NCBI RefSeq assembly: GCF_030163795.1
Contig: NZ_JASJOF010000015.1
Span: 1-52,202 of the forward strand
Direction of reading: 5' to 3'
Origin: Roseicyclus marinus
Lineage (GTDB): Bacteria > Pseudomonadota > Alphaproteobacteria > Rhodobacterales > Rhodobacteraceae
Length of the DNA stretch: 52,202 bases
Under the pieces are notes generated by a model that ran no database searches, was not told the DNA's origin, and worked only from the letters and a program-made list of their open reading frames with translations. The position numbers and the translations under genes are program-made. Of the stretch, positions 7,207-50,730 are shown piece after piece. Each line of letters begins with the position of its first letter. Positions within the stretch are counted from its first letter, which is position 1.

Positions 7207-9178
7207 GATCGGCATTGGCGCTTGTGCCGCCGAAATTGCCGTGTGCCGTCTTGTCCCACTGAAAGGGCTGCCACAGCATGTCCACCACAGCCTTCCAGGC
7301 TGACAGGGTGGCAAGGAGGAAATACACCTCGGCCACAAGGATCCAGGGACGCAGGTGCCGCAGGTGGCGCGCCTGTGTCGCCTGCACCGCCACCGCGATC
7401 GACAGAACCGAACTGGCGACAAAGGCCGTTGCGAGCACTCCGTAGCCGGTGGGGCTGACAAGCGCATCCAGCGGATGGGCGTGGCCAAAGGGTTTTACCA
7501 TCAGTGACCAGACCAGCGGCGCGGCCAGAAAGCCCGCGACCGCCCCCAAAAGCTGCACCTGCAGGGCGAAAAACCGCATCGGTCCCAGATCCCGCCATAA
7601 GGATCGGGGCGCGCGCATCGCCATCGCCCAGGTCATCAAGTAGCCTTTCTGCCACCGCGCGCGCTGCCGGATCCACGGCAGGACGGCGGCATTCGCCTCT
7701 TCATAGGTCGTGGAGTCGAGGATTTCGGTGCGGTACCCACGGCGCACAAGGCGCAGGCCCAGTTCGGCATCCTCAGTCACGTTATGCGCGTCCCAACCGC
7801 CGACCTCTACCAAGACGTCGCGGCGGAGGAATTGCGTGGTGCCACCCAAGGGCACGACAAGGCCAAGATGCTGGACGCCGGGCAGCATGACGCGGAACCA
7901 GCCGGCATATTCGAGGGCAAAGAGGCGCGACATAAGATTGTGGCGCGCGTTGAAGTAATCGAGCCGGCCCTGAAGGCAGGCCACCTCCGGCGGAGACTCG
8001 GCAAATCGGCGGGCGATCTTGGTGATCTGGTCCGGTTCGGGTCGATCCTCGGCATCGTAGACCCCGACGATTTCGCCGCGAGCGAAGGAGAGAGCGAAAT
8101 TCAACGCGCGCGGCTTGGTCCGGGGACTGCCCGGGGGCACGGTCAGGACCCGCCACGCCGGGGGTAGATGCGCCGCGTTCAACGCCCGGTGCGTGGTCGC
8201 GTCATCCGCCTCCGTGATCAAGAGCACGTCGAGCCGTTCGGGCGGGTAGTCGAGACGCGACAGGTGCGTCACCAGCGTCGCGGCTATGTCCTGCTCGCGA
8301 TAGAGCGGCACGAGTAGGGAAACAACCGGTTGGCGCAGCAGCGGCGCCGTGGATTCGGGACGCAGCGCCATGGCTATGGCGCCGCGCCGTGCTGCGGCGA
8401 AGGCCGCGATTTTGAGTGCAATGTTCCCGCTGAATATCAGCAGGGCGAGGCCGCAGAGGAAGGCCGTCACGAAAACCGGTGCAAACCTGGCCGAAAGTGC
8501 GAAGCACGCCGCGATCAGCAGAAGCCAGCGCAAGGCCGTCGCGCTGCGCCAGTTCCGGCAAGAGCAGCTTTGTGGGGCCTGTCTCTCGGCCAGCCGTGCA
8601 AGGCCCTCACCGTAGATCGCGATCTGCGCTGCCGTGATCCGGTCGCGCGGGGCCAGCGTGACGATCGCGCGTAATCCGTGCGGCAGGGCGGCCCGGATCG
8701 CTGCGATATTGGCCGGCCTTGAGGTGGCGAGGATGACGAGATCGCCCATCTGTTCGGTCGGCACCGCTTCGAGCGCGAGGGAGAGCCGCGCGGGCAGGCA
8801 AGCGCCAAGCCCTGTGGCCAGCGGGCGCTGCCCCAGATCCGACAGGCCAAGCCCGTGGCAATCGGCAAGGGCAGCGAGCAGGTCAAGCTCGGGCAGCAGC
8901 CCTCGAGCGAGAAGAACATCGGCAAGATCCGAATCGTTGCGACGCTGTGCGATCTGCGCCTGAGCGAGATCCGTGGCGCTGATCGCGCCCCGCGCCAGAA
9001 GGATCGCGCCCAGCATCTCGGGCCCCGGTGGCTTTCGCGCCAGCCGATGCGCCAGCCGCGCCCGCGCCGTTGCGTCCATGTCCCGTGCGAAATGCCTGTC
9101 GTTCTTAGGGAATACGTGCGGCGGCTGTCCCCTGTGGCGAGGGTTCGACGCAGGATCGTTGACCCAGTCCTGATCCAT
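7139..9178 (-). CDS. Membrane GT2 glycosyltransferase with MshEN-like N-terminus
   Basis: A 679-residue protein. Residues about 50-195 resemble the N-terminal domain of type II secretion ATPases (MshEN/GSPII_E_N), with the LGAILLARGAIS, LADVLLARGLL and LGACLPARLSLALEAVP pattern. Two membrane helices follow (about 215-265). A family 2 glycosyltransferase domain follows at about 285-500: VPLYRE, the YDAEDRPEPDQ metal site, TEDAELGLRL, and QRARWQKGY, the (Q/R)xxRW motif of processive polysaccharide synthases. C-terminal helices (about 525-650) complete a BcsA-like layout. Probably makes or exports a surface polysaccharide, perhaps gated by a ligand on the N-terminal domain, which in related proteins binds c-di-GMP (inference). 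An internal Met at 34 (9079) is an alternative start. Confidence 0.85.
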   Translation of the reverse strand: MDQDWVNDPASNPRHRGQPPHVFPKNDRHFARDMDATARARLAHRLARKPPGPEMLGAILLARGAISATDLAQAQIAQRRNDSDLADVLLARGLLPELDLLAALADCHGLGLSDLGQRPLATGLGACLPARLSLALEAVPTEQMGDLVILATSRPANIAAIRAALPHGLRAIVTLAPRDRITAAQIAIYGEGLARLAERQAPQSCSCRNWRSATALRWLLLIAACFALSARFAPVFVTAFLCGLALLIFSGNIALKIAAFAAARRGAIAMALRPESTAPLLRQPVVSLLVPLYREQDIAATLVTHLSRLDYPPERLDVLLITEADDATTHRALNAAHLPPAWRVLTVPPGSPRTKPRALNFALSFARGEIVGVYDAEDRPEPDQITKIARRFAESPPEVACLQGRLDYFNARHNLMSRLFALEYAGWFRVMLPGVQHLGLVVPLGGTTQFLRRDVLVEVGGWDAHNVTEDAELGLRLVRRGYRTEILDSTTYEEANAAVLPWIRQRARWQKGYLMTWAMAMRAPRSLWRDLGPMRFFALQVQLLGAVAGFLAAPLVWSLMVKPFGHAHPLDALVSPTGYGVLATAFVASSVLSIAVAVQATQARHLRHLRPWILVAEVYFLLATLSAWKAVVDMLWQPFQWDKTAHGNFGGTSANADLSPRPSGPLPSGARRKRWTGDP

Positions 9179-9308
9179 GATCCCCTCGACCTCGCAGAGC
9201 GGTCACAGCCGCATTTTGACCCTCGGCATGGCTTTCGAGTCATACCTTCAGGCTGCGAGGATGGGGGGCGAGCCTTAACGGCCGGTTAATGCCGTCGGGG
9301 GCGCGGCG

Positions 9309-10457
9309 TCAGGTCAAGCTGCGCGCCCGGATCGCTTCGGCAAAGCGCTCGAACAGGTAGAAGCTGTCTTGCGGGCCGGGGCTGGCCTCCGGGTGGTATT
9401 GCACGGAATAGACAGGGCGGTCGGCCATGCGGATCCCGCAATTGGAGCCGTCGAAAAGGCTGACATGGGTTTCGATCACGCCCTTGGGCAGGGTCTGGCT
9501 GTCGACGGTGAAGCCGTGGTTCATCGAGGTGATCTCGACCTTGCCGGTTTCCAGATCCTTGACCGGGTGGTTCGCGCCGTGGTGACCGTGGTTCATCTTG
9601 ACCGTCTTGGCCCCCAGCGCCAACGCCAGCATCTGGTGACCGAGGCAGATGCCGAAGATCGGCAGATCCGCCTCGAGCACGCCTTGGATCATCGGCACGG
9701 CATAGGTCCCGGTCGCGGCCGGATCGCCCGGCCCGTTGGACAGGAACACGCCATCAGGGTTCTGCGCCAGAACCTCTTCGGCCGTGGTTGTGGCGGGCAT
9801 GACGGTCACATCACAGCCGACGCTGGCAAGGCAGCGCAGGATGTTGCGCTTGGCGCCGTAATCCAGGGCCACGACCTTGGGCGCGGGGCCTTCACGCTTG
9901 GTGTAGCCCTCGGGCCATGCCCAACGTTTTTCATCCCAGCGATAGGATTGGGCGCAGGTGACGCCCTTGGCCAGATCGAGGCCAACCAGCCCGGGGAACC
10001 CGCGCGCGGCCTTGACCAGCGCCTCGATATCGAAATTGCCATCCGGATCATGGGCCAGCGCCACATGGGGCGCGCCCTGCTGGCGGATCGCGCGGGTCAG
10101 GCGGCGGGTATCGACACCGCCCATGCCGATCCGGCCGGTCTTTTCCAGCCATGACACCAGATCGCCCGTCGCGCGCCAGTTGGACGGTTCGGTCGGATCC
10201 CATTTTACGATCATGCCCTCGGCCACGGGATCGCCGGTTTCGTCATCCTCGGGCGTGACCCCGGTGTTGCCGATATGGGGGAAGGTGAAGGTCACGATCT
10301 GCCCGGCATAGGACGGGTCGGTCATGATTTCCTGATACCCGGTCATCGCCGTGTTGAAGCAAAGCTCTGCGACGCGCATTCCCTTGGCCCCGAAGCCGCG
10401 TCCGAAAAACAGGGTTCCATCGGCAAGCGCGAGACAGGCAGTGGGTTTTGCGGGCAT
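9309..10457 (-). CDS. carA: Carbamoyl-phosphate synthase small subunit
   Basis: A 382-residue glutamine amidotransferase subunit that supplies ammonia to CarB for carbamoyl phosphate, used for pyrimidines and arginine. The N-terminal CPSase_sm domain (about 6-140) includes FNTAMTGYQEIMTDPSY. The class I GATase domain (about 190-370) has the nucleophile in FGICLGHQ and the His/Glu pair in YHPEASPGP. All catalytic residues are intact. carB is not in the window. Divergent from the YqeY-type gene. Confidence 0.97.
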   Translation of the reverse strand: MPAKPTACLALADGTLFFGRGFGAKGMRVAELCFNTAMTGYQEIMTDPSYAGQIVTFTFPHIGNTGVTPEDDETGDPVAEGMIVKWDPTEPSNWRATGDLVSWLEKTGRIGMGGVDTRRLTRAIRQQGAPHVALAHDPDGNFDIEALVKAARGFPGLVGLDLAKGVTCAQSYRWDEKRWAWPEGYTKREGPAPKVVALDYGAKRNILRCLASVGCDVTVMPATTTAEEVLAQNPDGVFLSNGPGDPAATGTYAVPMIQGVLEADLPIFGICLGHQMLALALGAKTVKMNHGHHGANHPVKDLETGKVEITSMNHGFTVDSQTLPKGVIETHVSLFDGSNCGIRMADRPVYSVQYHPEASPGPQDSFYLFERFAEAIRARSLT

Positions 10458-10599
10458 GGCGGCAGCTCCGTTCGGGGTCCGGGCAAATTGGGCGTGGTCT
10501 ACGGGGGGCGTGGGGTCGGGTCAAGGCGGTGCGAGGAGGTGTTGTTGCCGCGCCGCGTCTGCCCTATCTAGCGCGCTTGGACACATCATGGGGGATGCC

Positions 10600-30041: not shown

Positions 30042-30261
30042 TTGCTACTCTGTCCGCACTCAATGGGCGCAACGCGCGCCTCAGGTTATTTGGTCCGATG
30101 CCGTCTGCCGGGCACGGTTCCGTTTTGATTGATTGGCACGATACCTTGTTTGAGGCGGTCTGAAAACCCGTTTGCCTCGAGCCGCGCGCCTGTTTGCTGA
30201 CCTGTTGCAGCCGGGCGCATCTTTCAGAATCACGCGCGCCCCCTTACGAGACACGAAGGCC

Positions 30262-30351
30262 GGAGGAGTGGCCGAGCGGTCGAAGGCACCGGTCTTGAAA
30301 ACCGGCGTGCGTGTGAGCGTACCGTGGGTTCGAATCCCACCTCCTCCGCCA
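30262..30351 (+). tRNA. tRNA-Ser (UGA)
   Basis: 90 bases with encoded CCA (30349-30351). The acceptor pair is GGAGGAG with CTCCTCC. The anticodon stem CCGGT/ACCGG has loop CTTGAAA giving anticodon TGA. There is a long variable arm (type II) and a T-arm GTGGGTTCGAATCCCAC. The gene content changes from core to accessory directly downstream, which fits its use as an integration site. Confidence 0.95.
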
Positions 30352-30509
30352 CTACCCTTCCGGCAATGCTTTGATATCTATTTAGTTTCTGTGTCCGCAC
30401 AGGGTACGGGGTATCACGCGGGGTATCATTTGGCTCTGCGGGTAGTCAGGAAGCCGCTCTGATGCATGATCCCGCACGGAAAATAGTGCATGACTTTACC
30501 GGGGGCGAG
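30352..30509. other. Short gap at island edge
   Basis: 158 bases between tRNA-Ser and the FtsH-like gene. Two copies of GGGGTATCA(C/T) lie 14 bases apart near 30409-30430. No integrase gene or full repeat of the tRNA end was found here. Confidence 0.4.
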
Positions 30510-33122
30510 TCACGGCGAAATCGCACTGTTGGGATCGCTTGGGCAGACAGATACTGTTGCTCTCCGGACGCACGTCGTTCCCTCCGATGAGAGCAGATCC
30601 CGAAGCCTGTCACCATCCAGCATCCCGTCTCCGGCAAGTTCCCTTGCCAGCCTCTCGAGCCCCTCTTTCCTGCTGTCCAGCAGGGTCATTGCCCGCTGTT
30701 CCGCGTCCTTTAGCCGACTCTCGACCCGGGTGCGAAGGTCAGCATCAGCGCGCAGCACCCTGTCCACGTCCTTGGGCGCAGCGCGCCAGATCAGCTGTTC
30801 GGTAAGTCCGAAGGTGATTTCCATGGCCGTGGCCAAGTCGGTTGCCTTGGCGAGATCGCTGTCCTCTGCCCCTCCGGCCCCGGCGGAGACCTCGCCAAGG
30901 AATAGCCGTTCTGCGGCGCGGCCGGACATGAGCGTGATGAGCGCTGCGTCCATTTCGGCCTTCGTAGGCGATGTCGAAATGTTCGGGGTTTCCACATAAC
31001 CGCCTGCGGCGTGGATGGCGATCCGCTGCGGCGTTCCAAGGCCGGTGGCGTGGGACGCGATGGCATGTCCGGCTTCATGCACGGCGACCCGCCAGTGGAG
31101 CGCGTCGTCGAGAGGCGGCCTGGTCTCGGCGAGGCTGGCCTCGAGATGGCGCAGCGCGAGGGGTTCGCGCTGCCGCCGGGCCAGTGCGCGGGCACCGCGG
31201 ACGAGGCGGGCGATGTCGGCGCCGGACATGCCGATGCAGAGGCGCGCGAGCGGCGTGAGGTCGGCGTCCGGAAGATCGCGCCCGAGGTGCCACCTGATCG
31301 CGGCAGGCAGCTGGTCGGGGTCGGGATGGCCGAGCGTCAGGAGCTGGTCGAAGCGTCCGGGCCTGCGCAGCGCCGCGTCGATCTTGTGCGGGTAATTCGT
31401 GGCCGCGATGGTCAACACACCTTCCATGCTGTCGAAGCCGTCGAGACACTCCAAAAGGCCTCCGACGACCATGTCGGTCCAGCTGCTATTGTGGTCGTGA
31501 GCGCGGGCGCGGTCGCCCCAGGCGTCAAGTTCATCGAGGAAGATGATGGACGGCGCGGTCTTTGCCGCCTCGGCGAACAGGGCGCGGAGCTCGCGGATGA
31601 CCTCTGACCCACGGGAGCCGCTGGCCTGCAGCTTTGCCAGCGAACTTGCATGGAAGCTGACGCCGGCGTCCTGCTCGATGAGGCGCGCCAGCTCGGTCTT
31701 GCCGCTGCCCGGGGGCCCGTAGAGCAGGAAGCCCCGCGTCACATCTTCCCACGGCAGGCGACCCTGCTGCCAATCCTCGAGATCCGCGCGCAGTTGATCG
31801 ACGGCGTCCCGGACCGGTTGAGGCAGGGGGAAGTCGTGCAGACCCGGGCCGGGCTTGGGGCCGGCGGGCGAGGTCTTCAGCGCCTGCGCGAGGCGGCGCG
31901 CGAGGCTCGGCCCGTCAGGCGACCGGAAGGCGAGAGCGAGCGATGCGAGGGGCAATTCGGCCAAGGCGGCATCCTCCGGCAGGTCATCGGGTCCGAGCTC
32001 CGGGATGTCCGGGCGGATCAGACGGAGGGCGTGGAGCAGGATCTGCCTGTCAAGCGGCGCGAGCGGAATGATCTCGGGCGCCAGCCCTGCAACGGGCTTG
32101 GGCAAGTCGAGCGCCTCGGCGGCGACGAGCGCCACGCTGCGCCCGCGCAAGAGCGCCGTTTGGAGCGGCTCGCGCAGGCCCGGAAAGCTGCCCTTCTGTG
32201 AGGACCCATGTTCCAGCACATCCGCCATCATGTCGATGAAGAGCGCGGGTGCGGACCGCGGCCGATCCGACAGGATGGCCGAGACCACGCCTTCGATGGT
32301 CCTGTCGAGTGCGGCCTCGCCGGTGGCGATCACGGTGATCGCGCCGCGCGCGAGGAGCCGGTCACGGAGGCTTTCCAGCGATCCGAAGGTCTTGGCAAGG
32401 CGGAGCACGGAGAGCGCCGGAAGCATGCGCGGGATCAAGCCCTCCCGCGGGTTGCAGCGCGGGGGGATCGGCAACGTGGACAGGCCCGGGATCTGTTCGG
32501 GGTCGAGCCAGTCGAGGGGGTCCTCGGGCGCGCTCGTGTTCTCGGGGTGATCCCAATCTGGCTCGTCGTCAGAGGACTCCGCAGGCGTGTTCGTGGCGCC
32601 ATCCTCCGGTCTGGCCTGTTCAAGACCGGTTGTCGCCCTCTCGGGCGCACCGGCGGGACGGTCCAGCGGGCGGCCAGCGGCCCCGCCGTCGCCGTCCTGG
32701 CTGTCATGAGTGTCGCCCGCATCTCCCTCCTTCTCTCGATCCGGCAGGTCGTCTGCTGCAGGATCATCCTGCTCATCGTCCATATCGTCGTTGTCCTCTT
32801 CATCTTCCGGCGCGTTTTGGGCCTCATCGAAGGCCCAGAACGCGTGTGTTGGCTCTGCCAACCTGTCGAAGATCTGCTCCGCGTACGCCTGCCAGCCCGC
32901 TGTCGCGGTGGCAGGATCGGGAGCAGAGGAAAGAGACCGCGCAGGCGCGGCATCGGACATGGGCCGCGCAAGCGCGGTGGGGTTTTGGGCCTGCGGCCCA
33001 TGGCTTGGATCAGAAGCAAGGGGTTCGGGGGGCGTGCCCTGCGCCGCAGCGCTCGGACCCGGGGCAGAGGCAGGGACAGGGCTAGTGGCAGGGACAGTGG
33101 CGAGAAGCGGGCGGTGGGTCAT
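30510..33122 (-). CDS. Soluble FtsH-like AAA+ ATPase with M41 peptidase domain
   Basis: An 870-residue protein. The N-terminal about 200 residues are disordered, Pro/Ala-rich then strongly acidic (about 100-125, run of D/E). A region of about 200-400 with VIATGEAALDRTIEGVVSAI follows. The AAA+ domain has Walker A GPPGSGKT (469-476), Walker B IIFLDELDAWG (about 525), and the second-region-of-homology Arg residues in ATNYPHKIDAALRRPGRFDQ. The peptidase domain has the zinc motif HEAGH (682-686) and the third-ligand segment AEDSDLAKATDLA. This is the FtsH order, but with no membrane helix. GGAGG lies 8 bases before the ATG at 33122. The last about 20 residues are divergent. Likely an ATP-driven protease; target unknown. 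Confidence 0.85.
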   Translation of the reverse strand: MTHRPLLATVPATSPVPASAPGPSAAAQGTPPEPLASDPSHGPQAQNPTALARPMSDAAPARSLSSAPDPATATAGWQAYAEQIFDRLAEPTHAFWAFDEAQNAPEDEEDNDDMDDEQDDPAADDLPDREKEGDAGDTHDSQDGDGGAAGRPLDRPAGAPERATTGLEQARPEDGATNTPAESSDDEPDWDHPENTSAPEDPLDWLDPEQIPGLSTLPIPPRCNPREGLIPRMLPALSVLRLAKTFGSLESLRDRLLARGAITVIATGEAALDRTIEGVVSAILSDRPRSAPALFIDMMADVLEHGSSQKGSFPGLREPLQTALLRGRSVALVAAEALDLPKPVAGLAPEIIPLAPLDRQILLHALRLIRPDIPELGPDDLPEDAALAELPLASLALAFRSPDGPSLARRLAQALKTSPAGPKPGPGLHDFPLPQPVRDAVDQLRADLEDWQQGRLPWEDVTRGFLLYGPPGSGKTELARLIEQDAGVSFHASSLAKLQASGSRGSEVIRELRALFAEAAKTAPSIIFLDELDAWGDRARAHDHNSSWTDMVVGGLLECLDGFDSMEGVLTIAATNYPHKIDAALRRPGRFDQLLTLGHPDPDQLPAAIRWHLGRDLPDADLTPLARLCIGMSGADIARLVRGARALARRQREPLALRHLEASLAETRPPLDDALHWRVAVHEAGHAIASHATGLGTPQRIAIHAAGGYVETPNISTSPTKAEMDAALITLMSGRAAERLFLGEVSAGAGGAEDSDLAKATDLATAMEITFGLTEQLIWRAAPKDVDRVLRADADLRTRVESRLKDAEQRAMTLLDSRKEGLERLARELAGDGMLDGDRLRDLLSSEGTTCVRRATVSVCPSDPNSAISP

Positions 33123-33333
33123 GGGCGGAACCTCCGGGGAAAGGGCCAAGGGGCAGGAAGAAAGCAAGGACGGGCGCGAGAGCCCGGCGCGACGGGAGGG
33201 CTCTGGCAGGAGCCCAAGGGAGTCTGGTGAAGGTCTCGGATCAGGCCGCAACATTCGGGATCGGCCGCCTGAACCGAGGGCTTCAGCCGCGACGATCCAG
33301 GATCAGATCGAAAGGCGGATGCCTGATCCGGGA
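33123..33333. other. 211-bp gap, GATC-dense leader
   Basis: No gene seen. The stretch holds the ribosome site of the FtsH-like gene and several short inverted GATC-containing palindromes. Confidence 0.3.
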
Positions 33334-34509
33334 TCATGGCGGGAGCGTGCCGTTACCCGACAGGCTAGCTGGGCCTCCACCGAAGCCCTCATCGGGGTCA
33401 TCTTCATCGTCCTCTCCCCCATCCGGCGCGTCCGATCCCGGATCGGCGGAGGGCTTGCGCCCCGACCGGTTCATGCGCGCTTCGATGCCGTCGAGCACCT
33501 TGTGCAGAACCGGGAGGAGCGTCGGGCAGTAGATCTCGGAGACGACATTGATCTCTCCGACATATGCATCGACCGGGATCACGGCATCCGGGTATCGCTT
33601 CGCGAGCCGCGCGTTGGCTCGACGTTCCTCGGCGCAGGCGGCATGGCCCGTGGGCATGGGCAGAAGGCGCAACAACTCGACCTTAGTTGCGCGCGGCAGC
33701 CCGAGCTGATAGCGGAACCGATGCTCCGGATTGGAACTGTAGCCGAGCTTCAAGACCCTGAGCCCGCTGTCCGGCAGATCAATCTGCGCGAGATAGATGC
33801 AGCTCGGCTTCGACGCCCAGCTCTCGCCACAGCCGCCGCAATCGAGACGCCCGGTCTGCATGTTGGCCCGCGCGATGCGCTGTTCCTGCCCGCAGCCGTG
33901 GCGGTAGATCCGGTAGTTCCGATCGCCGGACGGATCGGGACCGATGAGCCTCCAGCCCTGTGCCTCGGCCTCTTCCGCCTCCCGCGCTGCATGACAGGTC
34001 TCGCAGCGCAACCCGCAGGCACCCGCGGCTGCCCGCTCGATCAGCTCGAACTGCCGGCGCAGGTCATGGCCACAGGGGGCGCGGAACCAGCCATAGACGT
34101 GATCTTCGGGATCACGGGCCAAGAACGCCACCCCCGCAGCCTTGGCCAGATCCCGGATCCGGCGCTCGGCGCAGGCCCCGCAGCGGGGCTCTGCCGTCAT
34201 CAGGGTGTAGACCTTGCTGGCGGTCTGCCCGCCGCAGCTATGGCAGGTCAGCGCCACGTGATACCGATCCCGGATGCGGCGATCGATCCGGAAGCCCTTC
34301 GACGCAGCCACCTGGGCCCAGCGATCCGGGATCGGCGCCGGAAATCCGCGCCAGTCGGCAGCGGCGACATCGCGCGACCGGTGCGGGATATGCAGCGGCA
34401 CGGGGTGATCGGGCGGCTGCACGGAGGAGCCATGCATCAAGGCCGCAGGCGCGGTCAGGGATCCGTGGGATCCGGGATCGGGACTGTTGGGGGGCTTGAA
34501 CTCGGTCAT
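33334..34509 (-). CDS. Zinc-knuckle / GIY-YIG nuclease-family protein
   Basis: A 391-residue protein. Residues about 55-235 contain repeated Cys motifs: CHSCGG...CGACAE, APCGHDL...CETC, HGCGQE...CGGCGE, each spaced about 55-60 residues, which looks like three related treble-clef or zinc-ribbon units. Residues about 237-330 form a GIY-YIG fold of the T5orf172/MUG113 kind: the CIYLAQ strand at 237, KLGYS at 254-258, an R in EHRFRYQL, and a Glu in AEERRANARL. The C-terminal tail is acidic. AGGAGG lies 6 bases upstream of ATG 34509. Metal-dependent DNA cleavage or DNA binding is likely; no homing context is seen. Same strand as the FtsH-like gene, 211 bases upstream of it. Confidence 0.75.
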   Translation of the reverse strand: MTEFKPPNSPDPGSHGSLTAPAALMHGSSVQPPDHPVPLHIPHRSRDVAAADWRGFPAPIPDRWAQVAASKGFRIDRRIRDRYHVALTCHSCGGQTASKVYTLMTAEPRCGACAERRIRDLAKAAGVAFLARDPEDHVYGWFRAPCGHDLRRQFELIERAAAGACGLRCETCHAAREAEEAEAQGWRLIGPDPSGDRNYRIYRHGCGQEQRIARANMQTGRLDCGGCGESWASKPSCIYLAQIDLPDSGLRVLKLGYSSNPEHRFRYQLGLPRATKVELLRLLPMPTGHAACAEERRANARLAKRYPDAVIPVDAYVGEINVVSEIYCPTLLPVLHKVLDGIEARMNRSGRKPSADPGSDAPDGGEDDEDDPDEGFGGGPASLSGNGTLPP

Positions 34510-34628
34510 GGGAAGACCTCCTTGGGGTGTGATCAGGCAAAGGAAGACACGGCCCCGCATCGGCATGCGGCGGGGCAAAACGGGTGAGCAGGCTTGGGGA
34601 AGAGAAACGGGGGCGCTGAGCCGAGCGC
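34510..34628. other. Gap in island operon
   Basis: 119 bases between the helical protein's stop and the GIY-YIG start; carries the strong ribosome site of the latter. No other feature seen. Confidence 0.3.
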
Positions 34629-35186
34629 TCAGAAGGTGGGACCGGTCAGATCAGACGGCGCGGGCGCGTCATGCCCGGGATCTGGGACCTGTGACATGTC
34701 TTCGACCGCGAGATAGGCTTCGAACCGGGAGAGGCCCTGCAGGATCAGCCGGTTCACCACGGGATCGAGACCGGGCAGATCGAGCGCGAGATAGCACATC
34801 GGGGTCTCGATCACGCGCCGCCGCAACCGCGCGACCAGATCGGGATCGGAGGACCGGATCACCTTCCGGATCAGCCGCGCCACCCGGATCAGGGCGATGT
34901 CGCCGGGTGCGCGGGGCGACTTGGCCAACAGCGCCTCGAGAGCGGACAAGGTGTGCGCCAACGCCCGCTCTGCATCCCGGAACCAGGCATCAAGCGCGGG
35001 GTCCGCGCCCGAGAAGCCGATCATGTCCCGATCAGCCGCGATCAGGACATCCATGGCGGTCAGAAGATGGGCGAACCGAAGCGCGATCCGCGAGGGACGG
35101 GTGCGCAGGTTGGCAAGGAGCGGGGCATCGAGGGCCCCCAGGATCGGGAAGCGAATTGCGGGCGGGGTCAGGGTGTGGGTCTGCAT
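34629..35186 (-). CDS. Unrecognised all-helical protein
   Basis: A 185-residue protein I do not recognise. Sequence such as RIALRFAHLLTAMDVLIAADRDMIGF, DAWFRDAERALAHTLSALEALLAK and DIALIRVARLIRKVIRSSDPDLVARLRRRVIE suggests long amphipathic helices and a positive middle. There is no signal peptide and no membrane helix. ATG 35186 has GGAG 7 bases upstream; a longer frame begins at 35252. First gene of the group that continues into the GIY-YIG and FtsH-like genes, so it may be a regulator or partner of them (inference). Confidence 0.65.
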   Translation of the reverse strand: MQTHTLTPPAIRFPILGALDAPLLANLRTRPSRIALRFAHLLTAMDVLIAADRDMIGFSGADPALDAWFRDAERALAHTLSALEALLAKSPRAPGDIALIRVARLIRKVIRSSDPDLVARLRRRVIETPMCYLALDLPGLDPVVNRLILQGLSRFEAYLAVEDMSQVPDPGHDAPAPSDLTGPTF

Positions 35187-35489
35187 GGGTGTCTCCAAGA
35201 AAGCGTGACGACTAGGTAGATTACAGATAGGGGCGATGAACCTAGGCGTCAAGACAAACCGAAGAAAATAATCGGGGTGCTCTGGGAAGGGGCCTTTAAG
35301 GGGGACTCTGTAAAAAGGACGTCGACTTCGGATCAGGTGGGGCAGGGGGATCTTCGGCCGGAAGCGACTGGTTGAGGCCGCCCAGCCGGCGCTTAGGTCT
35401 CAGGTATCCTGCAGGAAGGGCTCGGAGCGCGCTCTGGAACCCCTCTATGTCAGGCTCGGCGGCTACAAAAACCCCTTGGAGCATAAGGA
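35187..35489. other. Gap before repeat zone
   Basis: 303 bases. A minus-strand frame of 91 codons at 35296-35571 extends into the first repeat unit; its composition is Pro/Leu-rich and I do not regard it as a proven gene. Confidence 0.3.
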
Positions 35490-36000
35490 TTAGCCAGCTA
35501 GCAAACGTTTTTGGGCTATCTCGGAGGCCTCCTCCCGCGTTCGGGACCCTGTAAAATGGCGCCTCCGACAAGAGACCGGCTCCTTTAAGGCATCAAGACC
35601 TCCGCCCCAACAAAAGGCTAGCTGACTAGCAAGCGGTTCTCCGCCGGTAAATGGGTGCTCATGATGGTTTGGGAAGCCGCAAGCAGGGCCCTGTTACCAA
35701 CAAACGTCTGATCAAAGGCGAGTAGAACCCAGTCAGAACATAACCTAGTCAGCTAGCAAACGCTTTGGGGCTGTCTCGGAAATCCCCCTTGTGTGCGCGG
35801 GGCGTCGCAAAATTTGGCCTTCGATAAGAGGGCAGGTCGACGAAGGCGGCCGGAACCCCTCTTCGGAAAAATACGTAGTTGACTAGATAACGTGATTGGA
35901 CCCAGAAAGGAGCTCTCCAGCGTGCTCTCCATGTCTCAGAGACCATCCAAGGCCCGAAAACCTGTTGCAATGTGTCGAGCGGGCTAGCATCTGCTGAAGG
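35490..36000. repeat. Four degenerate units, about 128 bp period
   Basis: An 18-bp motif of the form cTAGYYRRCTAGCAAACG occurs at 35490, 35618, 35744 and 35874, i.e. at spacings of 128, 126 and 130 bases. The first and third units are alike over about 90 bases (GGGCTATCTCGGA against GGGCTGTCTCGGA, then a shared GTAAAATGG-like segment); the second and fourth resemble each other more weakly. A short minus-strand frame at 35296-35571 and the tail of another at 35749 both read a RDSPK(T/A)FAS peptide across the units, so the repeat may be a decayed coding piece or an iteron-like array. Confidence 0.6.
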
Positions 36001-36052
36001 GATCAAGCCGGGCTCTTCAACCTGGCAGGCACCATGAAACGGGGGCAGGGCG

Positions 36053-36484
36053 ATGAGTGACGATATCAAGCAGCAGGAAACCCTCGATCTTCTGACCCTG
36101 GTCTCTCGCGCCAGCGCGCGCGAGGCCGCGGAGGCGCTCCGCGCGAGCGGCCTAACACTGGCCCAGTTCTCGCTCCTGGATCTGATCGAAAAGGAGGGGA
36201 TCCGCTTCCCCACAGCGCTGGCTCGGAAACTCGACATCGAGAGCAGCACGATGGCGGCCATCCTCAAGCGGGCGGAGCGTGACGGCCTCGTTCTGCGAAG
36301 CCCGGATCCCAAGGACGCGCGCGGCATCGTGGTGGAGGTGACTGAACAGGGCAGGGGGCTTCTACCGGAGGCCCGCCGTGCGCTAGCCGCGGTTGAACAG
36401 AAGTTGACGAAAGACATCGACGCTCAAGATCTCGAGTCGGCCAGAACGGCCATGCAGGCGATGTTGCTCAACCTCAGAAAGTGA
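36053..36484 (+). CDS. MarR-family regulator
   Basis: A 143-residue winged-helix protein with the MarR layout: long helices at both ends for dimer contact, LTLAQFSLLDLIEKEG, FPTALARKLDIESSTMAAILKRAERDGLVLRSPDPKDARGIVVEVTEQG (recognition helix and wing). Such proteins usually respond to phenolic ligands or oxidants and repress neighbours. Its nearest upstream neighbour is the repeat zone, and its downstream gap lacks a gene; no obvious target. Confidence 0.9.
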   Translation: MSDDIKQQETLDLLTLVSRASAREAAEALRASGLTLAQFSLLDLIEKEGIRFPTALARKLDIESSTMAAILKRAERDGLVLRSPDPKDARGIVVEVTEQGRGLLPEARRALAAVEQKLTKDIDAQDLESARTAMQAMLLNLRK

Positions 36485-36812
36485 GAGGCGACGCGAACGG
36501 CCCGAAGAAGACTTTCACCTCCTTGCCAGACGCCGCAGTGCGGCGTCAGCGAAGCGGCCATGCGTACATCGCGCGACATTTTTTGTGGGTGAATGTCGCC
36601 AGTGCAGACTCCTCGGACATGCGCCCAAATCAACACGACCGTCGCCAGCGATGGCACTATCAATGCGATGATCGTTTTAGGAATGAACGTCGGCGATCGT
36701 GGGTGTCTCAGCCGGAATACCGGTCTTGGTGGGTCTGTTATCCACCTAGTAGCAAGCTTCCGAAGCCCCGATCTCCTTTGCGGGTCAAGCCCCACTATCC
36801 TTCTCTCCACGC
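36485..36812. other. 328-bp gap, no firm gene
   Basis: Between the MarR stop and the mdeB-like stop. A minus-strand frame includes one hydrophobic stretch (KTIIALIVPSLATVVLIW) that could be a membrane helix of a small protein, but with no ribosome site or family it is not called. Confidence 0.3.
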
Positions 36813-43935: not shown

Positions 43936-44772
43936 TCAGTGAAAGCTCGCCTGAAAGGTCGTCGCAGTCAGCGAGACATGCGCTTCCAGAGGCGGGCGCA
44001 GCTCGAAAGCCTTCGGCTCGCGCGCGAAGTGCCATAGGCGGAACAGGGACCATTCCGAGTGCCGCTCCTGGGAAACAGCCAGCTCGTTTCGGCTGATGTC
44101 GAAGGGAGTGCGCTCCCAGCCGTTTGTCGTCTTGACCTCGATAAGGCGCGGACGGCCGTCCGGCGCGAAGCTGGCGATATCGTAGCCGGCACCATCACCA
44201 TCTTCCTCTGACACCCAGCGCACCTTACGCGCCAGATCGTCCCGTCCTGCCGAGCGAAGAGAAGCCCGTTCATGCGTCAGCACACGTTCCTCGCCCGCGC
44301 GGCCGAGGGCCCGGTTGCGCTCGTCCCGGCCCGCCACGTCGAACTTGCGCGCGATGTGTAGCATCTGTTCCAACTCCTGCGGCTGCGGCTGGTTCGACAG
44401 CGTCGGCGGCGACCCGATCCAGATCTGCGCCGCCTCGTGCAGGCCAGCGGCGGATTGCAGCCCCGATTGGCGCCCAAGCCAGGCCGGGTTCAGCGCCAGC
44501 CACCGCGCCACGGCATCCACCAAGGTCATCTGGAAATTGAACGCGGGCTTGTAGCCGGGGATCCAGTCTTCACCCAGCCCCTTCAGCACGGCGCTGATGT
44601 TCTGGTGTTTGAACTCGATTGATCCTTCGGAGCGATCGTTCAACAACGGCAGAAGCCCGCGCCGGTGCTCGGCCTTGTTGCACGAGCGACCAGAGACGTC
44701 ATCGGCCAGCATCGCGAAGTAATCCGCGACGATCAGGTCGTTCTCTTGATCTGACCAGGCCCCTTTTGACAT
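43936..44772 (-). CDS. DUF3883 nuclease-like protein
   Basis: A 278-residue protein. The N-terminal about 140 residues are unknown helical sequence (FKHQNISAVLKGLGEDWIPGYKPAFNFQ). Residues about 160-260 form a DUF3883 (NOV C-terminal) domain: GRAGEERVLTHERASL, KVRWVSEEDGDGAGYDIASFAPDGRPRLIEVKTTNG, which has the D...E-x-K layout of PD-(D/E)XK nucleases. Such domains occur in restriction or defence proteins and as orphans. Convergent with rsgA; the next feature is a broken recombinase. Confidence 0.8.
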   Translation of the reverse strand: MSKGAWSDQENDLIVADYFAMLADDVSGRSCNKAEHRRGLLPLLNDRSEGSIEFKHQNISAVLKGLGEDWIPGYKPAFNFQMTLVDAVARWLALNPAWLGRQSGLQSAAGLHEAAQIWIGSPPTLSNQPQPQELEQMLHIARKFDVAGRDERNRALGRAGEERVLTHERASLRSAGRDDLARKVRWVSEEDGDGAGYDIASFAPDGRPRLIEVKTTNGWERTPFDISRNELAVSQERHSEWSLFRLWHFAREPKAFELRPPLEAHVSLTATTFQASFH

Positions 44773-45711: not shown

Positions 45712-47073
45712 TTGAATGCTAGAAGTTTCTTGCTCCGTCACTTTGCAAGATCCTCTCTAGCGTGCGGTATTTTTCTAGTTGTTTTAATTTTTTATTCCTC
45801 AACCGGGCATAATCACGCAGCATTCAGTATTCAGTCAAAAATTCTGCTCTGCCTGCTATTTGTATTTGTGTGTTTTGCGCCAATATATCGAAGTGGCCGT
45901 TCGTGGCGCGCTGCCGGAGCGGCGCTATTAGTATATTTGTTAATATCATTCATGTCGCTTCCCAGTTCCAACATGAGCGTTGCGCTATTTGTCGACGTTC
46001 ATATTTTTCACGAGGCGACAGCGCGATCTGGCACCGGTACTCGTCTACTTATCCTTGCTCTTTTTCTCCCCCTGTTCCTCCATTTGAATGCTGGCGCGCA
46101 GATTCTGAGACATAAGCCGATAACGCTCCTTCAGAGAAATGTTACGTCTCCTCTCGTGATAGCGATATCTACTGCAAACCTTCTTTCTTACTCAACGTTT
46201 GGAGGGATAATTGACGTCAATTTAAGCCCGCCCACTGCCATGTCACTTCTTTTCATCTCCGCAGCGGCCGCTGTGCGAAGTTCATTTTATCGGCCCTATC
46301 GTTATATATACTTCTATAGAGAATTCGCGCTTTTCGATATTATTTCTTTAATAATGATCTTTGCGCTTCCATCGGTTCTGTACTACGCATCGCTCTTGTT
46401 TTTTCGTGCAAGTTTTCTTTTCAGCTTTTTCCCCACAATCATACTAAGCGCCTACATTTTCTATCTTTTGGGGTCAAATTATACTACCTTTTTAGCTGGA
46501 TTGCGCAGGCGCAGTTCAAAACAAAATCGATTGGCTGAATGGGCGTCGAAACACGACTTGAGAACAGGATTGTTTAACAGAAGCGCTTTTGACGAAATAT
46601 CGGCCTCTCACAAAAGCAATTCAATATCAGCCATCCTAATGGTCGACATTGATCGTTTCAAGGCTGTGAATGATAACTACGGTCACTTCGTTGGCGATGC
46701 CGTGATCGAAAATGTTTCGCGTATAATTCAGCGCAGCGTGCGTTCGAGTGATATTTGTGTGCGTTGGGGTGGAGAAGAGTATTTGGTGCTTCTTGATAAT
46801 TGCACACGCGAAAATGCTCAGGTTGTCGCGGAGAAAATTAGGTCCTCTGTTGAAGCCTCGAATACAAGAGAGCTGCCAGCGGTTACGGTGAGTATTGGGG
46901 GAGCAATGCGACACAACATGGACCTCAATTTTGATGAAGTGGCGCGGGAGGCGGATAGAAACCTTTACATCGCGAAGCGCGCTGGAAGAAACAGGGTTTC
47001 TTTCGGCGGGGCTGAACTAGCTCCTACACGGTCTGACGTGTTAGATCATGGGAACAACGCTCGGTACCACTAG
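45712..47073 (+). CDS. Membrane diguanylate cyclase (GGDEF)
   Basis: A 453-residue protein. The first about 270 residues contain seven to eight hydrophobic helices. The GGDEF domain covers about 285-435, with NRSAFDEI, VDIDRFKAVNDNYGH, the active site GGEEY (353-357) and an inhibitory site RSSD at 344-347, correctly five residues before it. It should make cyclic di-GMP with product inhibition. Only a TTG at 45712 is available as start; no ribosome site is obvious. Codon use and low GC differ from the core genes, suggesting transfer. Confidence 0.85.
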   Translation: MNARSFLLRHFARSSLACGIFLVVLIFYSSTGHNHAAFSIQSKILLCLLFVFVCFAPIYRSGRSWRAAGAALLVYLLISFMSLPSSNMSVALFVDVHIFHEATARSGTGTRLLILALFLPLFLHLNAGAQILRHKPITLLQRNVTSPLVIAISTANLLSYSTFGGIIDVNLSPPTAMSLLFISAAAAVRSSFYRPYRYIYFYREFALFDIISLIMIFALPSVLYYASLLFFRASFLFSFFPTIILSAYIFYLLGSNYTTFLAGLRRRSSKQNRLAEWASKHDLRTGLFNRSAFDEISASHKSNSISAILMVDIDRFKAVNDNYGHFVGDAVIENVSRIIQRSVRSSDICVRWGGEEYLVLLDNCTRENAQVVAEKIRSSVEASNTRELPAVTVSIGGAMRHNMDLNFDEVAREADRNLYIAKRAGRNRVSFGGAELAPTRSDVLDHGNNARYH

Positions 47074-47088
47074 GTATCGTGCAATATC

Positions 47089-47823
47089 CTAAGCTGTGGG
47101 CGGCATCTCTTGCACTTCAAGACGGGCCTTTCCGCTTCGTTTTGCCTTATACAGGGCTGAGTCTGCAGAACGAAACGCAACAGCAAGATCGCCTCCTTTT
47201 GGAATTTCACAGGCGCCGATGGAAACAGTCACTGATAGGTTTTGTGGTCCTATTTCAGATTTAAATGGGAATGGGCGCAGTAGGGCAGTTTTAATATAGC
47301 CTATATTAGATATTCTGGTGTTTCTGAGCAGAATGCCAAACTCTTCGCCGCCAAGTCGCCCCACAAGATCGTCCACGCGCAGGGTCCGAGCAAGAATATA
47401 GCCAACGCTACGGAGGCATTCATCGCCAACTTCATGACCCCATGTATCGTTGATGGCCTTGAAATTATCTATATCGAGAACGAGCAAGACCGCGTATGCA
47501 TCCTTTTCCACGATTTCGGCGCAACTTTTCATAAAAAATCGTCTATTGGGAAGATTGGTTAAATGGTCAAATCGCGAAAGTCTGACGAGCGACTTCTGAA
47601 GACCAGCCTGTTTGATAAGGATTAGAAAGAACGAAGCAACAAACGGCCCACCAACGATCAATCCATTCAGAATAAGATACTGAAGTGATAATTTGGGCCC
47701 CATATTAGAGATGCGGTTAAAGGCAACATTGAAAATTATAATGAGGCCCAAAAATATCATAACCTTAAATACAAGATCTACTCGGCTTCTTGGAGATATC
47801 CACTTGTAAAATTTATGCCACAT
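47089..47823 (-). CDS. Short membrane diguanylate cyclase (GGDEF)
   Basis: A 244-residue protein with two N-terminal membrane helices (about 20-75) and a GGDEF domain (about 85-240): FDHLTNLPNRRFF, VLDIDNFKAINDTWGHEVGDE, the active site GGEEF (158-162) and an inhibitory RVDD at 149-152. Predicted active cyclase. Convergent with the GGDEF gene before it, 15 bases between stops. Confidence 0.88.
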   Translation of the reverse strand: MWHKFYKWISPRSRVDLVFKVMIFLGLIIIFNVAFNRISNMGPKLSLQYLILNGLIVGGPFVASFFLILIKQAGLQKSLVRLSRFDHLTNLPNRRFFMKSCAEIVEKDAYAVLLVLDIDNFKAINDTWGHEVGDECLRSVGYILARTLRVDDLVGRLGGEEFGILLRNTRISNIGYIKTALLRPFPFKSEIGPQNLSVTVSIGACEIPKGGDLAVAFRSADSALYKAKRSGKARLEVQEMPPTA

Positions 47824-48147
47824 GTCTTCCTGAGTTACGCGATTGAGTCAGGATCGTGTCGGGTATCTTATCCTGAGCGCCGAATTCGATTAATGCTAAT
47901 GGTTGAGTTTGCTCGTCAATCGGTTTGGGTCAAGCATATTTGCTCTTACTTGCTTCAGTTTTTTCGGATGCCGCCGTCGGCGCGTCGTTTCGCACCTGGA
48001 AAAATGTTCGTCATTGACGCTGGGTTGCTTGAGCCATTCCCTTGATCTCTAATAATTATCAATATGTTGGCATCCAATCTCGGCTCTCAACTACAACTTG
48101 CCGCATGTTCATATTGCAGATAGCCTCTCGCGAACGAGGGTCAGACC
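47824..48147. other. Divergent promoter gap, about 324 bp
   Basis: Holds the promoters for the short GGDEF gene (minus) and the composite GGDEF-EAL gene (plus). A short plus frame at 47815-48045 has no recognisable product. Confidence 0.35.
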
Positions 48148-50730
48148 ATGATGAATAGCTTAAGAGCTGCCGCTTTTCTCAGCTTGGTGGTGGGCAGCAT
48201 TTCGGGCCTCGCCGTCGGGATTTACCAATTCCAGCGGATATTCGCAGCCAACGTCGCGGAAGTGCGGCGCGACGCCCTGCTTGCTGTCGATACCGTCGAG
48301 CTGTTGGTCCAGAATATGCGCCTTGCGGCTACGACCGTTGCAGCAAATATTGATCCTGATGATCTCGCCGGCAGCGCAGAAGTGTTCTGGCAGTCTGTGA
48401 AGCAGGAGTGGCCTAGTCTTAGGACGATGCTCGTCATCGACCCATCCGGTGTGATCGTTGCAGATCTTGGCCGGGACGGCGCGGCGGTAGGAACGGATGT
48501 TTCGTTTCGGGACTATTTCTTGGAAGTGATCTCGGGGCGCGAAGCCGTTTACTATGTGGATGCGCCGATCATCTCGACTTTCGACGACCGATGGGTTCTG
48601 CCGGTCAGCGCCCCCGTATTGGATGAAAACCTCGGTGTACAAGGCGTCGTAACCGCGAGCGTTGCGGAAAGTTATTTCGATCCTACCGGGTGGCAAAGCC
48701 TCGGACAGGGTAGCCAAGTTTATCTGGTGTCAATGGAGACGGGTGGTGTAGCCGCCCTCCAGCCTGATATGCCCTTGCTCCCGTCTGGCGAGAGCGCTGA
48801 CGCCGCAGTTTTGGAGGCAATGAGGGGATCGGGGGGGCGATTGGCTATCCCGGGTCAGACAGCCTTCGGAAGCGTCACTAGCTTCGGCAGTCTTGGCGTC
48901 ATTGTTTCGCGGCCATCCATGGCCATTAGGCACTTAGCGATCAGATCCGGAGCGATCAGCGGACTTCTTGTTGCAGCCGCCGCCGCCTTTTTGGCGATAG
49001 CTATTCTCCGCGGAAAGATGGTTCTGGATCGAGTGCGGCGCGATGCTGCGAGACTGACCGAGTTGCAGCAGCACCAGCGCCTTGCAACAGCTGCTGGTGG
49101 TGTTGGGATTTGGGTTGTCGATGTCCGAAAGGGAACCGTGGTCTGGGATGACCTGATGTTCCAGCAATTCGGCGTCGATCGCGCGAACTTCGGCGGCACA
49201 CTTCAGGATGTGAGTGCATGGCTGCACCCTGACGATGTCGAAGCGGTGATGTCCAAGTTCGAGGCTGCGTTGAAGACAGGCACGGACTTCGAAAACCAAT
49301 ATCGTATCGTAACACCAGCTGGTGAAGAACGCATGATGCGGTCACGGGCGACCATAACGATTGGCCAGGACGGTAAGCCGGAAAGAGCCATCGGCGTCAA
49401 TGTCGACGTAACGCAAGAGGTTTCCAACGAGCGGTCCCTTAGAACAGCGTTGGAGCGGATTGAGTGGGATGCTTCCCATGATCAGCTCACTGGTGTCGGA
49501 AACAGACGTGGATTTGCTAAACATGTGGAGGAGCTGGCTCGAAGCCAGGTCGCCGAAGCTGAGATGGCGGTCGTGTTGCTCGACATCGATCAATTCAAAC
49601 TGATCAACGACGTATACGGCCATGTGGGAGGAGATCATCTTCTTTCGGCGGTTGCCGCAAATATCAGGTCGATCTTGCTGCCAGAAGACTTTTTGGGACG
49701 CCTTGGAGGAGACGAATTTGTTGTTATCCTTTACGGGCCACAGATCCGAGAGCGTGCTATAGAGCTCAGCGACCGTATTTTGGAAGTATCCAGGCAATCT
49801 GTATTTTTTGGCGACAAAGTCATTCGATACACTTCTAGCGTTGGGATTTCTGTTGGACCCTTGTCAGCAGCCAATAGGATTCTCGAGGATGCCGATATCG
49901 CCCTGTACGAGGCGAAGACTGCCGGGCGAAATCAGGCGCAAATCTTTAACAAGGAAATGCGCCTCAGAACGGAAAACAAGAAGCGTCTTGCCGACGATCT
50001 CTCCGTTGCCGTTGAGAATGGGCAGATCGGTATCCGGCTGCAACCACAGATTTGCGCTCACACTGGCGCTCTGGCAGGTGTAGAGGCCCTTGTGCGTTGG
50101 TGGCATCCAGTTCGGGGCGAACTTTCCCCGATCGAATTCCTACCTCTCGCGAGCGAAATCGGCGTGATGGCAGATATCGATGCGGTTGTCATGGCTGAGG
50201 CCTTAAAGGCGGCAACAAGTCTTGCAGATCGCGGTATCGTCTTCCCAAGGCTTTCGCTGAACGTGAGTTTGGAGCGCCTTATAGCCCCCAGCCTTGTCTC
50301 TGATGTTGAAGCGATCTCAAGCTTTGATGGACGTATCATATTCGAGCTTCTGGAGGTCACGGACTTTAGCGTAGCAAATAGCGACGTATTCGACCGGATT
50401 AATCGCTTGCGTGACTTGGGCGTTCAGTTTGCTGTTGATGACTTTGGATCTGGACACGCATCACTTACGACGCTCTTAGCGCTGGAGCCGGACTACGTGA
50501 AAATCGACAAACGGCTTGTGATTGAAGGTATCCGCGACGGCCAAAAGCCCTCGCCATACCTGACAACCATCATCGAGCTATGCCAACGCATGAAGATATC
50601 GATAGTCGCCGAAGGCGTGGAGACCCAGGAAAGTGCCAACGCTCTGACGATGTTGGGCGTGGAGTTTTTGCAGGGCTACCATTTCGGTCATCCGCTCACC
50701 TTGGATGAGTTTTACGCATGGAAGCAGTAG
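48148..50730 (+). CDS. Cache-PAS-GGDEF-EAL c-di-GMP protein
   Basis: An 860-residue sensor. Membrane helix 1 (about 5-25), a periplasmic Cache domain (about 35-265), helix 2 (about 270-295), a PAS domain (about 320-430), GGDEF (about 450-605) with VLLDIDQFKLINDVYGH and GGDEF at 520-524, and EAL (about 620-855) with EAL at 646-648, FELLEVTD, AVDDFGSG, YVKIDKRLV, VAEGVET and LQGYHF. The phosphodiesterase residues are complete. The site five residues before GGDEF is LPED rather than RxxD, so cyclase product inhibition is unlikely. GAGGG lies 8 bases before the ATG. The balance of synthesis and breakdown cannot be read from sequence. Confidence 0.93.
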   Translation: MMNSLRAAAFLSLVVGSISGLAVGIYQFQRIFAANVAEVRRDALLAVDTVELLVQNMRLAATTVAANIDPDDLAGSAEVFWQSVKQEWPSLRTMLVIDPSGVIVADLGRDGAAVGTDVSFRDYFLEVISGREAVYYVDAPIISTFDDRWVLPVSAPVLDENLGVQGVVTASVAESYFDPTGWQSLGQGSQVYLVSMETGGVAALQPDMPLLPSGESADAAVLEAMRGSGGRLAIPGQTAFGSVTSFGSLGVIVSRPSMAIRHLAIRSGAISGLLVAAAAAFLAIAILRGKMVLDRVRRDAARLTELQQHQRLATAAGGVGIWVVDVRKGTVVWDDLMFQQFGVDRANFGGTLQDVSAWLHPDDVEAVMSKFEAALKTGTDFENQYRIVTPAGEERMMRSRATITIGQDGKPERAIGVNVDVTQEVSNERSLRTALERIEWDASHDQLTGVGNRRGFAKHVEELARSQVAEAEMAVVLLDIDQFKLINDVYGHVGGDHLLSAVAANIRSILLPEDFLGRLGGDEFVVILYGPQIRERAIELSDRILEVSRQSVFFGDKVIRYTSSVGISVGPLSAANRILEDADIALYEAKTAGRNQAQIFNKEMRLRTENKKRLADDLSVAVENGQIGIRLQPQICAHTGALAGVEALVRWWHPVRGELSPIEFLPLASEIGVMADIDAVVMAEALKAATSLADRGIVFPRLSLNVSLERLIAPSLVSDVEAISSFDGRIIFELLEVTDFSVANSDVFDRINRLRDLGVQFAVDDFGSGHASLTTLLALEPDYVKIDKRLVIEGIRDGQKPSPYLTTIIELCQRMKISIVAEGVETQESANALTMLGVEFLQGYHFGHPLTLDEFYAWKQ

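Follow-up and report, generated by a model that had tools for sequence, protein, structure and literature searches.

The DNA studied here (the window) is a stretch of 52,202 nucleotides from Roseicyclus marinus, a member of the Rhodobacteraceae (assembly GCF_030163795.1, contig NZ_JASJOF010000015.1). At 30510-35186 it carries three genes in a row, which encode, read 5' to 3' on the minus strand, a helical protein, a nuclease-like protein with zinc-binding units and a GIY-YIG-like domain, and a protease with an AAA and an M41 peptidase domain (Table 1). An earlier note on this DNA, made from the sequence alone, had described three minus-strand genes with ribosome sites, and this is borne out by the open reading frames (ORFs) and by a GGAG(G)-type site a few bases 5' of each of the three likely starts. 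The intergenic gaps measure 119 bp (helical to nuclease gene) and 211 bp (nuclease to protease gene). Because the neighbouring tRNA-Ser gene lies on the plus strand, the 3' end of the operon faces the 3' end of the tRNA, 158 bp away. Beyond what the earlier note had described, we report an exchangeable nuclease, an extra and apparently degenerate AAA+ domain of the protease, and a degron-like tail of the helical protein.

Table 1. Features of the three-gene locus and its surroundings (window coordinates).
Feature	Position	Strand	Basis or remark
Helical protein, gene 3, 185 amino acids (aa)	34629-35186	-	ORF and ribosome site
Nuclease-like protein, gene 2, 391 aa	33334-34509	-	ORF and ribosome site
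Protease, gene 1, 870 aa	30510-33122	-	ORF and ribosome site
Three zinc-binding units of gene 2	33829-34245	-	Invariant CxxC pairs in alignment
GIY-YIG-like domain of gene 2 (T5orf172/MUG113-type)	33529-33801	-	Alignment, and Pfam over relatives
Putative degenerate AAA+ domain of gene 1	31815-32447	-	AlphaFold2 model mcdf056a8f470 and Foldseek
Active AAA+ domain of gene 1	31335-31727	-	Pfam AAA, long-ORF residues 510-640
M41 peptidase domain of gene 1	30597-31091	-	Pfam Peptidase_M41, long-ORF residues 722-886
tRNA-Ser(TGA), variable junction in congeners	30262-30351	+	
MarR-family regulator in block common to Roseicyclus L069	36053-36484	+	Module membership uncertain
Direct repeats, 89%, upstream of gene 3	35491-35525 and 35746-35780		Possible operators

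A conserved unit with an exchanged nuclease

The three genes form a conserved unit, found mostly in Rhodobacterales, on plasmids and on chromosomes. The locus counts were made with profiles of the three proteins on all ORFs of 117 loci, with near-duplicates and fragments removed; "intact" in these counts is a length limit only, and L058, counted as a GIY-YIG locus, has a disrupted final part. Of the 63 non-redundant loci with room for it, 53 have the protease gene immediately downstream of the GIY-YIG gene. L091 would make 54; there, the overlap between protease ORF and nuclease ORF is so long that the gene caller missed the protease. Directly upstream, a helical gene was detected by profile in 50/66 loci. 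If any ORF of 130-260 aa is accepted in this position, the count rises to 61/66 for the GIY-YIG loci and 13/14 for the PD-(D/E)XK loci described below, and L104 and L105 also have such an upstream ORF, missed by the caller; the profile-based counts are preferred, since in GC-rich DNA an ORF of this length says little. In 9/63 loci (one of them the disrupted L058) the GIY-YIG gene is not accompanied by a protease gene; four of the nine keep a profile-detected helical gene and four have only an ORF in its place. Therefore, restraint of the nuclease by the protease cannot be obligatory.

With the zinc/GIY-YIG protein as query, 295 genomes of the family gave relatives at 26 places, two of them weak, in 21 genomes. 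Relatives also occur in 17 plasmid records (12 were analysed; H1, H5, H6, H15 and H17 were left out) and at 43 loci among genome contigs. The latter are presumably nearly all from Rhodobacterales, the exceptions by name being L070 (Maritalea) and L108 (a metagenome-assembled genome named "Oceanospirillaceae"). A scan of the phylum gave the protein in 6/378 genomes, including that of the window, all from the same family. When the 295 genomes were searched with the helical profile, which was built by iteration on the same loci, 24 places in 16 genomes were obtained; this search extends beyond those loci, and its genomes overlap with those of the gene 2 search. Twenty of the 24 places adjoin a gene in the nuclease position (hereafter the slot) and/or a protease gene, one of these slot genes being CoiA-like; three lie at contig ends and one is next to a relaxase-like gene. 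The earlier note had proposed to ask whether homologues of the three genes are found together, and had taken the group for a chance one should they never co-occur; they do co-occur, as a unit.

The N-terminal region of the protease was used as a further query, and detected 32 places in 26 of the 295 genomes. Among them, 20 adjoin a GIY-YIG gene, five adjoin another gene of about 180-220 aa, one adjoins a CoiA-like gene (L189; DUF7830 2.8e-4, CoiA_nuc 0.13) and six adjoin neither, one of which (G258) starts at a contig edge. Could the three genes then be a chance neighbourhood of unrelated accessory genes? The protease relatives without either nuclease type, at 7/32 places (one CoiA-like, one at the contig edge), could be cited for it. 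The same gene order, however, recurs in dozens of divergent loci, and we reject this highly improbable explanation on the co-occurrence counts. At the level of the class, 12/385 genomes match the same query, and six weak, short class matches (E-value, E, 2.5e-9 to 3.9e-7) lie outside the analysed loci. Outside the family, locus L180 carries a slot protein of PD-(D/E)XK type.

The slot proteins of 180-220 aa share D71, Q84 and K86, which are invariant in seven sequences and form a D...QxK motif. With the PD-(D/E)XK profile PF11645, the L180 protein scores 29 bits (cut-off 26.1), those of L190, L179 and L032 match weakly, and those of L186 and L188 do not match. Eight plasmid relatives of this protein were found and all were analysed; three of them are annotated as "group I intron-associated PD-(D/E)XK endonuclease". 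In the 14 PD-(D/E)XK loci, the protease gene lies downstream in 13 and a profile-detected helical gene upstream in 12. One of these loci, L179, is a second copy in the genome of the window itself (PD-(D/E)XK gene at G000:C18:47636-48178; in locus coordinates, 7637-8179, followed by the protease gene at 8236-10515), and its protease is 44.6% identical to that of the window over 543 columns. In a quick tree of 72 proteases (LG+G4, SH-aLRT), the PD-(D/E)XK label needs five changes, at least four of them forced by starred branches, and L179 falls in a starred clade of seven rows together with the window protease. The nuclease has been repeatedly exchanged for an unrelated type while both neighbours stay. 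In L186-L188, the PD-(D/E)XK gene set is followed by an ORF of 120-145 aa and a long ORF, which encodes a serine recombinase in L186 and L188.

The three proteins

The earlier note had read gene 2 as three zinc units joined to a GIY-YIG fold, and an alignment of 25 sequences agrees. The invariant zinc-binding residues are C112xxC115..C133xxC136, C169/H171..C192xxC195 and C229..C247xxC250, and in the GIY-YIG-like domain Y262, K277, G279, R287 and E318 are invariant; Tyr, Arg and Glu are conserved in the GIY-YIG core. The window protein itself has no match to a GIY-YIG family in Pfam, T5orf172 and MUG113 both being unmatched, and has a weak PHROG match to "endonuclease" (9.3e-4). Among the 25 relatives, at E <= 0.1, T5orf172 is found in eight (best 1.6e-4) and MUG113 in four, and several plasmid relatives are annotated as "GIY-YIG nuclease family protein".

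The window protease matches Pfam AAA (1.4e-27) and Peptidase_M41 (2e-17). The residues of HExGH, the distal Asp, Walker A, Walker B and RxGR are kept in all 28 aligned proteases, the window copy included, and simple patterns find HExGH in 61/66, Walker A in 63/66 and Walker B in 65/66 of a larger set. The highest hydropathy over 19 residues is 1.27, that is, there is no strongly hydrophobic stretch and no membrane segment was found by hydropathy in the window protease. A 19-residue stretch exceeds 1.6 in 26/66 proteases, so we restrict the statement on membrane segments to the window protein. The description "soluble FtsH-like" in the earlier note fits the AAA and M41 motifs and the hydropathy of the window protein. 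FtsH itself is ruled out: the protein scores 181.9 bits against the FtsH model TIGR01241 (cut-off 600), has no Pfam match to FtsH_ext and no membrane segment, and bears an additional domain. This additional domain precedes the active AAA domain, and an AlphaFold2 model of the region has a mean pLDDT (predicted local distance difference test) of 78. A Foldseek search with it gave nothing at E <= 0.001 (best E 2.7e-3, best probability 0.92, low template modelling scores); the best 50 rows are what we take to be AAA+ proteins, such as TRIP13, clamp loaders and Lon. Because of these rows, and because no Walker A was seen in this domain of the window protease, we read it as a degenerate AAA+ domain. 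At the presumed pore loop, the protease family has the motif WQxxGHLGDM, from which the window copy (KLQASGSRG) deviates.

AlphaFold2 models the helical protein as entirely helical, with a mean pLDDT of 83 and with both ends of low confidence. A fold search gave no PDB match at E <= 0.001, and the protein has no confident Pfam match and no match to a known antitoxin family. DUF6634 was tried and rejected as its identity (profile comparison probability 0.1 with three DUF6634 sequences; no Pfam match), and in the open literature searched DUF6634 is named in no paper. The C-terminus of the helical protein is biased: the last residue is nonpolar in 54/65 helical proteins, a set that includes positional ORFs and related sequences, compared with 19/65 nucleases and 23/53 proteases from the same loci. 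The tail is also acidic (D/E 0.21, K/R 0.05), with an acidic stretch before the last residue. Such a nonpolar end resembles the degrons of AAA+ proteases and is a candidate degron; the ssrA and LpxC tails mark substrates of AAA+ proteases including FtsH. The helical protein may thus be a degradable partner or inhibitor of the nuclease.

The co-variation of distances in 39 GIY-YIG loci also bears on the role of this protein. The partial correlation is 0.57 for protease and helical protein, 0.41 for nuclease and helical protein and 0.30 for protease and nuclease, with 5-95% ranges over subsamples of 0.47-0.66, 0.27-0.55 and 0.13-0.43, respectively. These distance matrices suggest that the helical protein is the hub of the three-protein unit. 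The same pattern would be expected if the helical protein were an adaptor with which the protease degrades the nuclease, an invader that inhibits the protease then triggering the nuclease, and a dedicated protease within the same gene row fits such a restraint as well. We consider it unlikely, given the nine GIY-YIG loci without a protease gene, one of them disrupted, and the nuclease C-termini, which lack a nonpolar bias.

The tRNA-Ser site, plasmids and neighbouring genes

The earlier note had placed the genes directly downstream of tRNA-Ser, which is accurate for the window; proximity to a tRNA is a feature of this site, and we do not claim it as a general one. In Roseicyclus sp. Amp-Y-6 (L069), window 30838-36511 is common at 88% and the sequences diverge beyond 30838; the contig ends 121 bases past the shared block on the other side, so that flanks could be compared on the 30838 side. 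Nine loci of congeners were compared, eight of which have the same left flank, DacA-SPOR-tRNA-Ser. Beyond the tRNA, six of these eight differ from the window, one (L249) ends at the tRNA, and one (L254, in G677) matches window 30217-30655 at 83.9%, which reaches into the end of the protease gene. Serine recombinase genes lie beyond tRNA-Ser in three of the six differing loci (L246, L247 and L251). A second copy of the tRNA 3' end, as expected for attL/attR, was not found in the window with up to three mismatches allowed, and integration at tRNA-Ser is therefore not proven. The accessory, mobile nature proposed in the earlier note is supported by the 17 plasmid records and by the variable flank beyond tRNA-Ser in congeners. 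A phage origin of the module was rejected, since its proteins have no match in phages, nor in viral contigs with a single-protein query.

Near some plasmid copies there are relaxase, recombinase, restriction-modification, methylase, SIR2 or Fic genes. Comparison with PADLOC gave 60 matched families for 88 neighbour proteins, with type II restriction-modification, DSR1 and SoFic among the 25 listed, and seven families for 58 control proteins, read mostly as cross-hits of ABC ATPases together with a single phospholipase, HTH_VI and PD-T4-2_B. The neighbours were selected by hand among the annotated genes of 15 plasmid loci, excluding transposases, most short genes and some other genes; the controls come from three of the same plasmids, again excluding transposases and also, among others, a CcdAB pair and peptide synthetases.

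Do the genes simply serve their carrier, in homing, integration or transfer, with the nuclease making a DNA complex that the AAA+ protease remodels? In line with this, several loci have relaxase or serine recombinase genes nearby, and domains like T5orf172 and the PD-(D/E)XK domain of group I introns occur in selfish endonucleases. In addition, a related AAA-M41 gene comes immediately after a tyrosine integrase gene in L202 (6937-9869; integrase by Pfam) and L204 (6746-9682; integrase by annotation only). However, the integrase and recombinase partners are inconstant whereas the three genes are mostly constant, and no integrase or recombinase was seen by eye among the window ORFs from tRNA-Ser to 36.5 kb, which makes service to the carrier quite improbable. 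L202 and L204 have neither slot nuclease nor helical gene by profile, and a SAVED/nucleotidyltransferase pair lies near L204.

Plasmid location, with 17 records matching the GIY-YIG protein, also suits a device that is purely for addiction, in the manner of a toxin-antitoxin pair: loss of the genes would end the supply of an unstable helical protein and the nuclease would kill the cell. A divergent CopG-type regulator is annotated beside seven of the 17 annotated plasmid loci with a slot nuclease, and AbrB/PIN or RelB genes lie near two loci. A dedicated protease of 870 aa would nevertheless be costly for such a device, as known addiction pairs rely on the host Lon or ClpP; some nucleases have no detectable helical partner, and repeated swapping of the nuclease fits defence at least equally. 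On balance, pure addiction seems somewhat unlikely to us.

Several further features were observed around these loci. The direct repeats upstream of gene 3 lie in 35260-36040, between the module and the divergent MarR gene, in a block seen only in L069 among the loci compared. A NOV_C-domain protein is encoded at window 43936-44772 on the minus strand (Pfam 9e-22), and an 88% identical copy directly follows tRNA-Ser in L247, near a serine recombinase gene. Three proteins of cyclic di-GMP type (GGDEF, GGDEF and PAS-GGDEF-EAL) are clustered at window 45712-50730. Proteins of about 460 aa without a Pfam match at E <= 0.01 are encoded upstream of several copies of the module (L212 2553-3956, L029 6549-7925 and L032 6059-7465). 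On other alphaproteobacterial plasmids (L031, L066, L067 and L068), related AAA-M41 genes lie near genes annotated as DUF6634, metallophosphoesterase or 3'-5' exonuclease, and these neighbourhoods are perhaps further versions of the same principle.

A proposed protease-gated nuclease and its relation to known systems

The gene set and its order, the repeated exchange of the nuclease, the protease motifs, the plasmid and island settings and the bias of the helical tail could be brought together in a module for defence or addiction in which a protease gates a nuclease. We favour this reading, to which we give somewhat less than an even chance; the binding, cleavage, toxicity, trigger and purpose in it are all proposed. 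The earlier note had considered a defence system, a module for the maintenance of a mobile element and a switch that degrades a regulator, and each of these may apply. The helical protein would bind and restrain the nuclease, and its nonpolar C-terminal tail would serve the cognate protease as a degron. A phage, incoming DNA or the loss of the element may be the trigger on which the protease would destroy the helical protein; the nuclease, once free, would cut nucleic acid, to the harm of the invader or of the cell.

Several observations weigh against the protease-gated module. Nucleases in L074, L079, L095 and L180 have no detectable helical gene, which is awkward for a strict pair of toxin and inhibitor, and the helical gene of L179 is a weak profile match (E 5e-4) that was missed in the larger search and has no BLAST similarity. 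The five further protease loci outside the family (L181-L185) carry neither nuclease type by profile. The window protease lacks the W or C that 26/28 sequences have at the presumed pore loop, and the two weaker partial correlations, nuclease-helical and protease-nuclease, have overlapping ranges over subsamples. The comparison of neighbours is small and unmatched, and the lack of matches in phages and viral contigs reported above counts on the same side.

More tentatively still, the module could represent a new immune or addiction class, in which an interchangeable nuclease (GIY-YIG, PD-(D/E)XK or CoiA-like) is gated by a dedicated protease, soluble and related to FtsH, whose degenerate AAA+ domain acts as a sensor ring and which destroys a small helical inhibitor through its C-terminal degron. 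In the open literature searched, which leaves most subscription journals outside its scope, we recognised no description of this module. We place it with the known effector modules that have an AAA+ partner, and it has a fair chance of forming a separate class. Modules for defence or addiction usually make use of housekeeping proteases; if the proposal is true, a module that brings an M41 protease along with its exchangeable nuclease would show that FtsH-type machines have been recruited as switches, and its three parts would form a testable system with two nuclease types in one genome.

Among known systems, FtsH (TIGR01241) shares with the window protease an AAA domain followed by an M41 zinc peptidase with HExGH and a distal Asp. 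The window protease differs in having the putative degenerate AAA+ domain, in lacking a membrane segment and FtsH_ext, and in lying beside a nuclease gene; the pore motif of its family also differs from that of FtsH, which is MFVGVG. The anti-phage system IetAS, composed of an AAA+ ATPase and an S8 protease, likewise couples an AAA+ motor to a protease, and PADLOC IetA matches the window AAA domain (8.8e-22). In the present module, however, the protease is fused and of M41 type, where IetAS has a separate S8 protease, the nuclease and the helical protein come in addition, and no S8 subtilisin-like partner was matched in the three window proteins.

In its proposed working, the module would resemble CalpL-CalpT-CalpS, in which a Lon-SAVED protease reportedly cleaves an anti-sigma factor, since in both proteolysis of an inhibitor would set an effector free; the protease, effector and sensor are different, and no cyclic-nucleotide domain was found in the three module proteins. 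Type II and tripartite toxin-antitoxin systems resemble it in being plasmid-borne and in that the gene for an exchangeable enzyme is preceded by one for a small partner whose tail is like a degron, whereas the module owns a dedicated protease and its helical protein matches no known antitoxin family. Finally, the neighbourhoods of DUF6634, metallophosphoesterase and AAA-M41 genes on alphaproteobacterial plasmids also place a related AAA-M41 protein beside variable enzymes, and differ in that DUF6634 has no profile relation to the helical protein.

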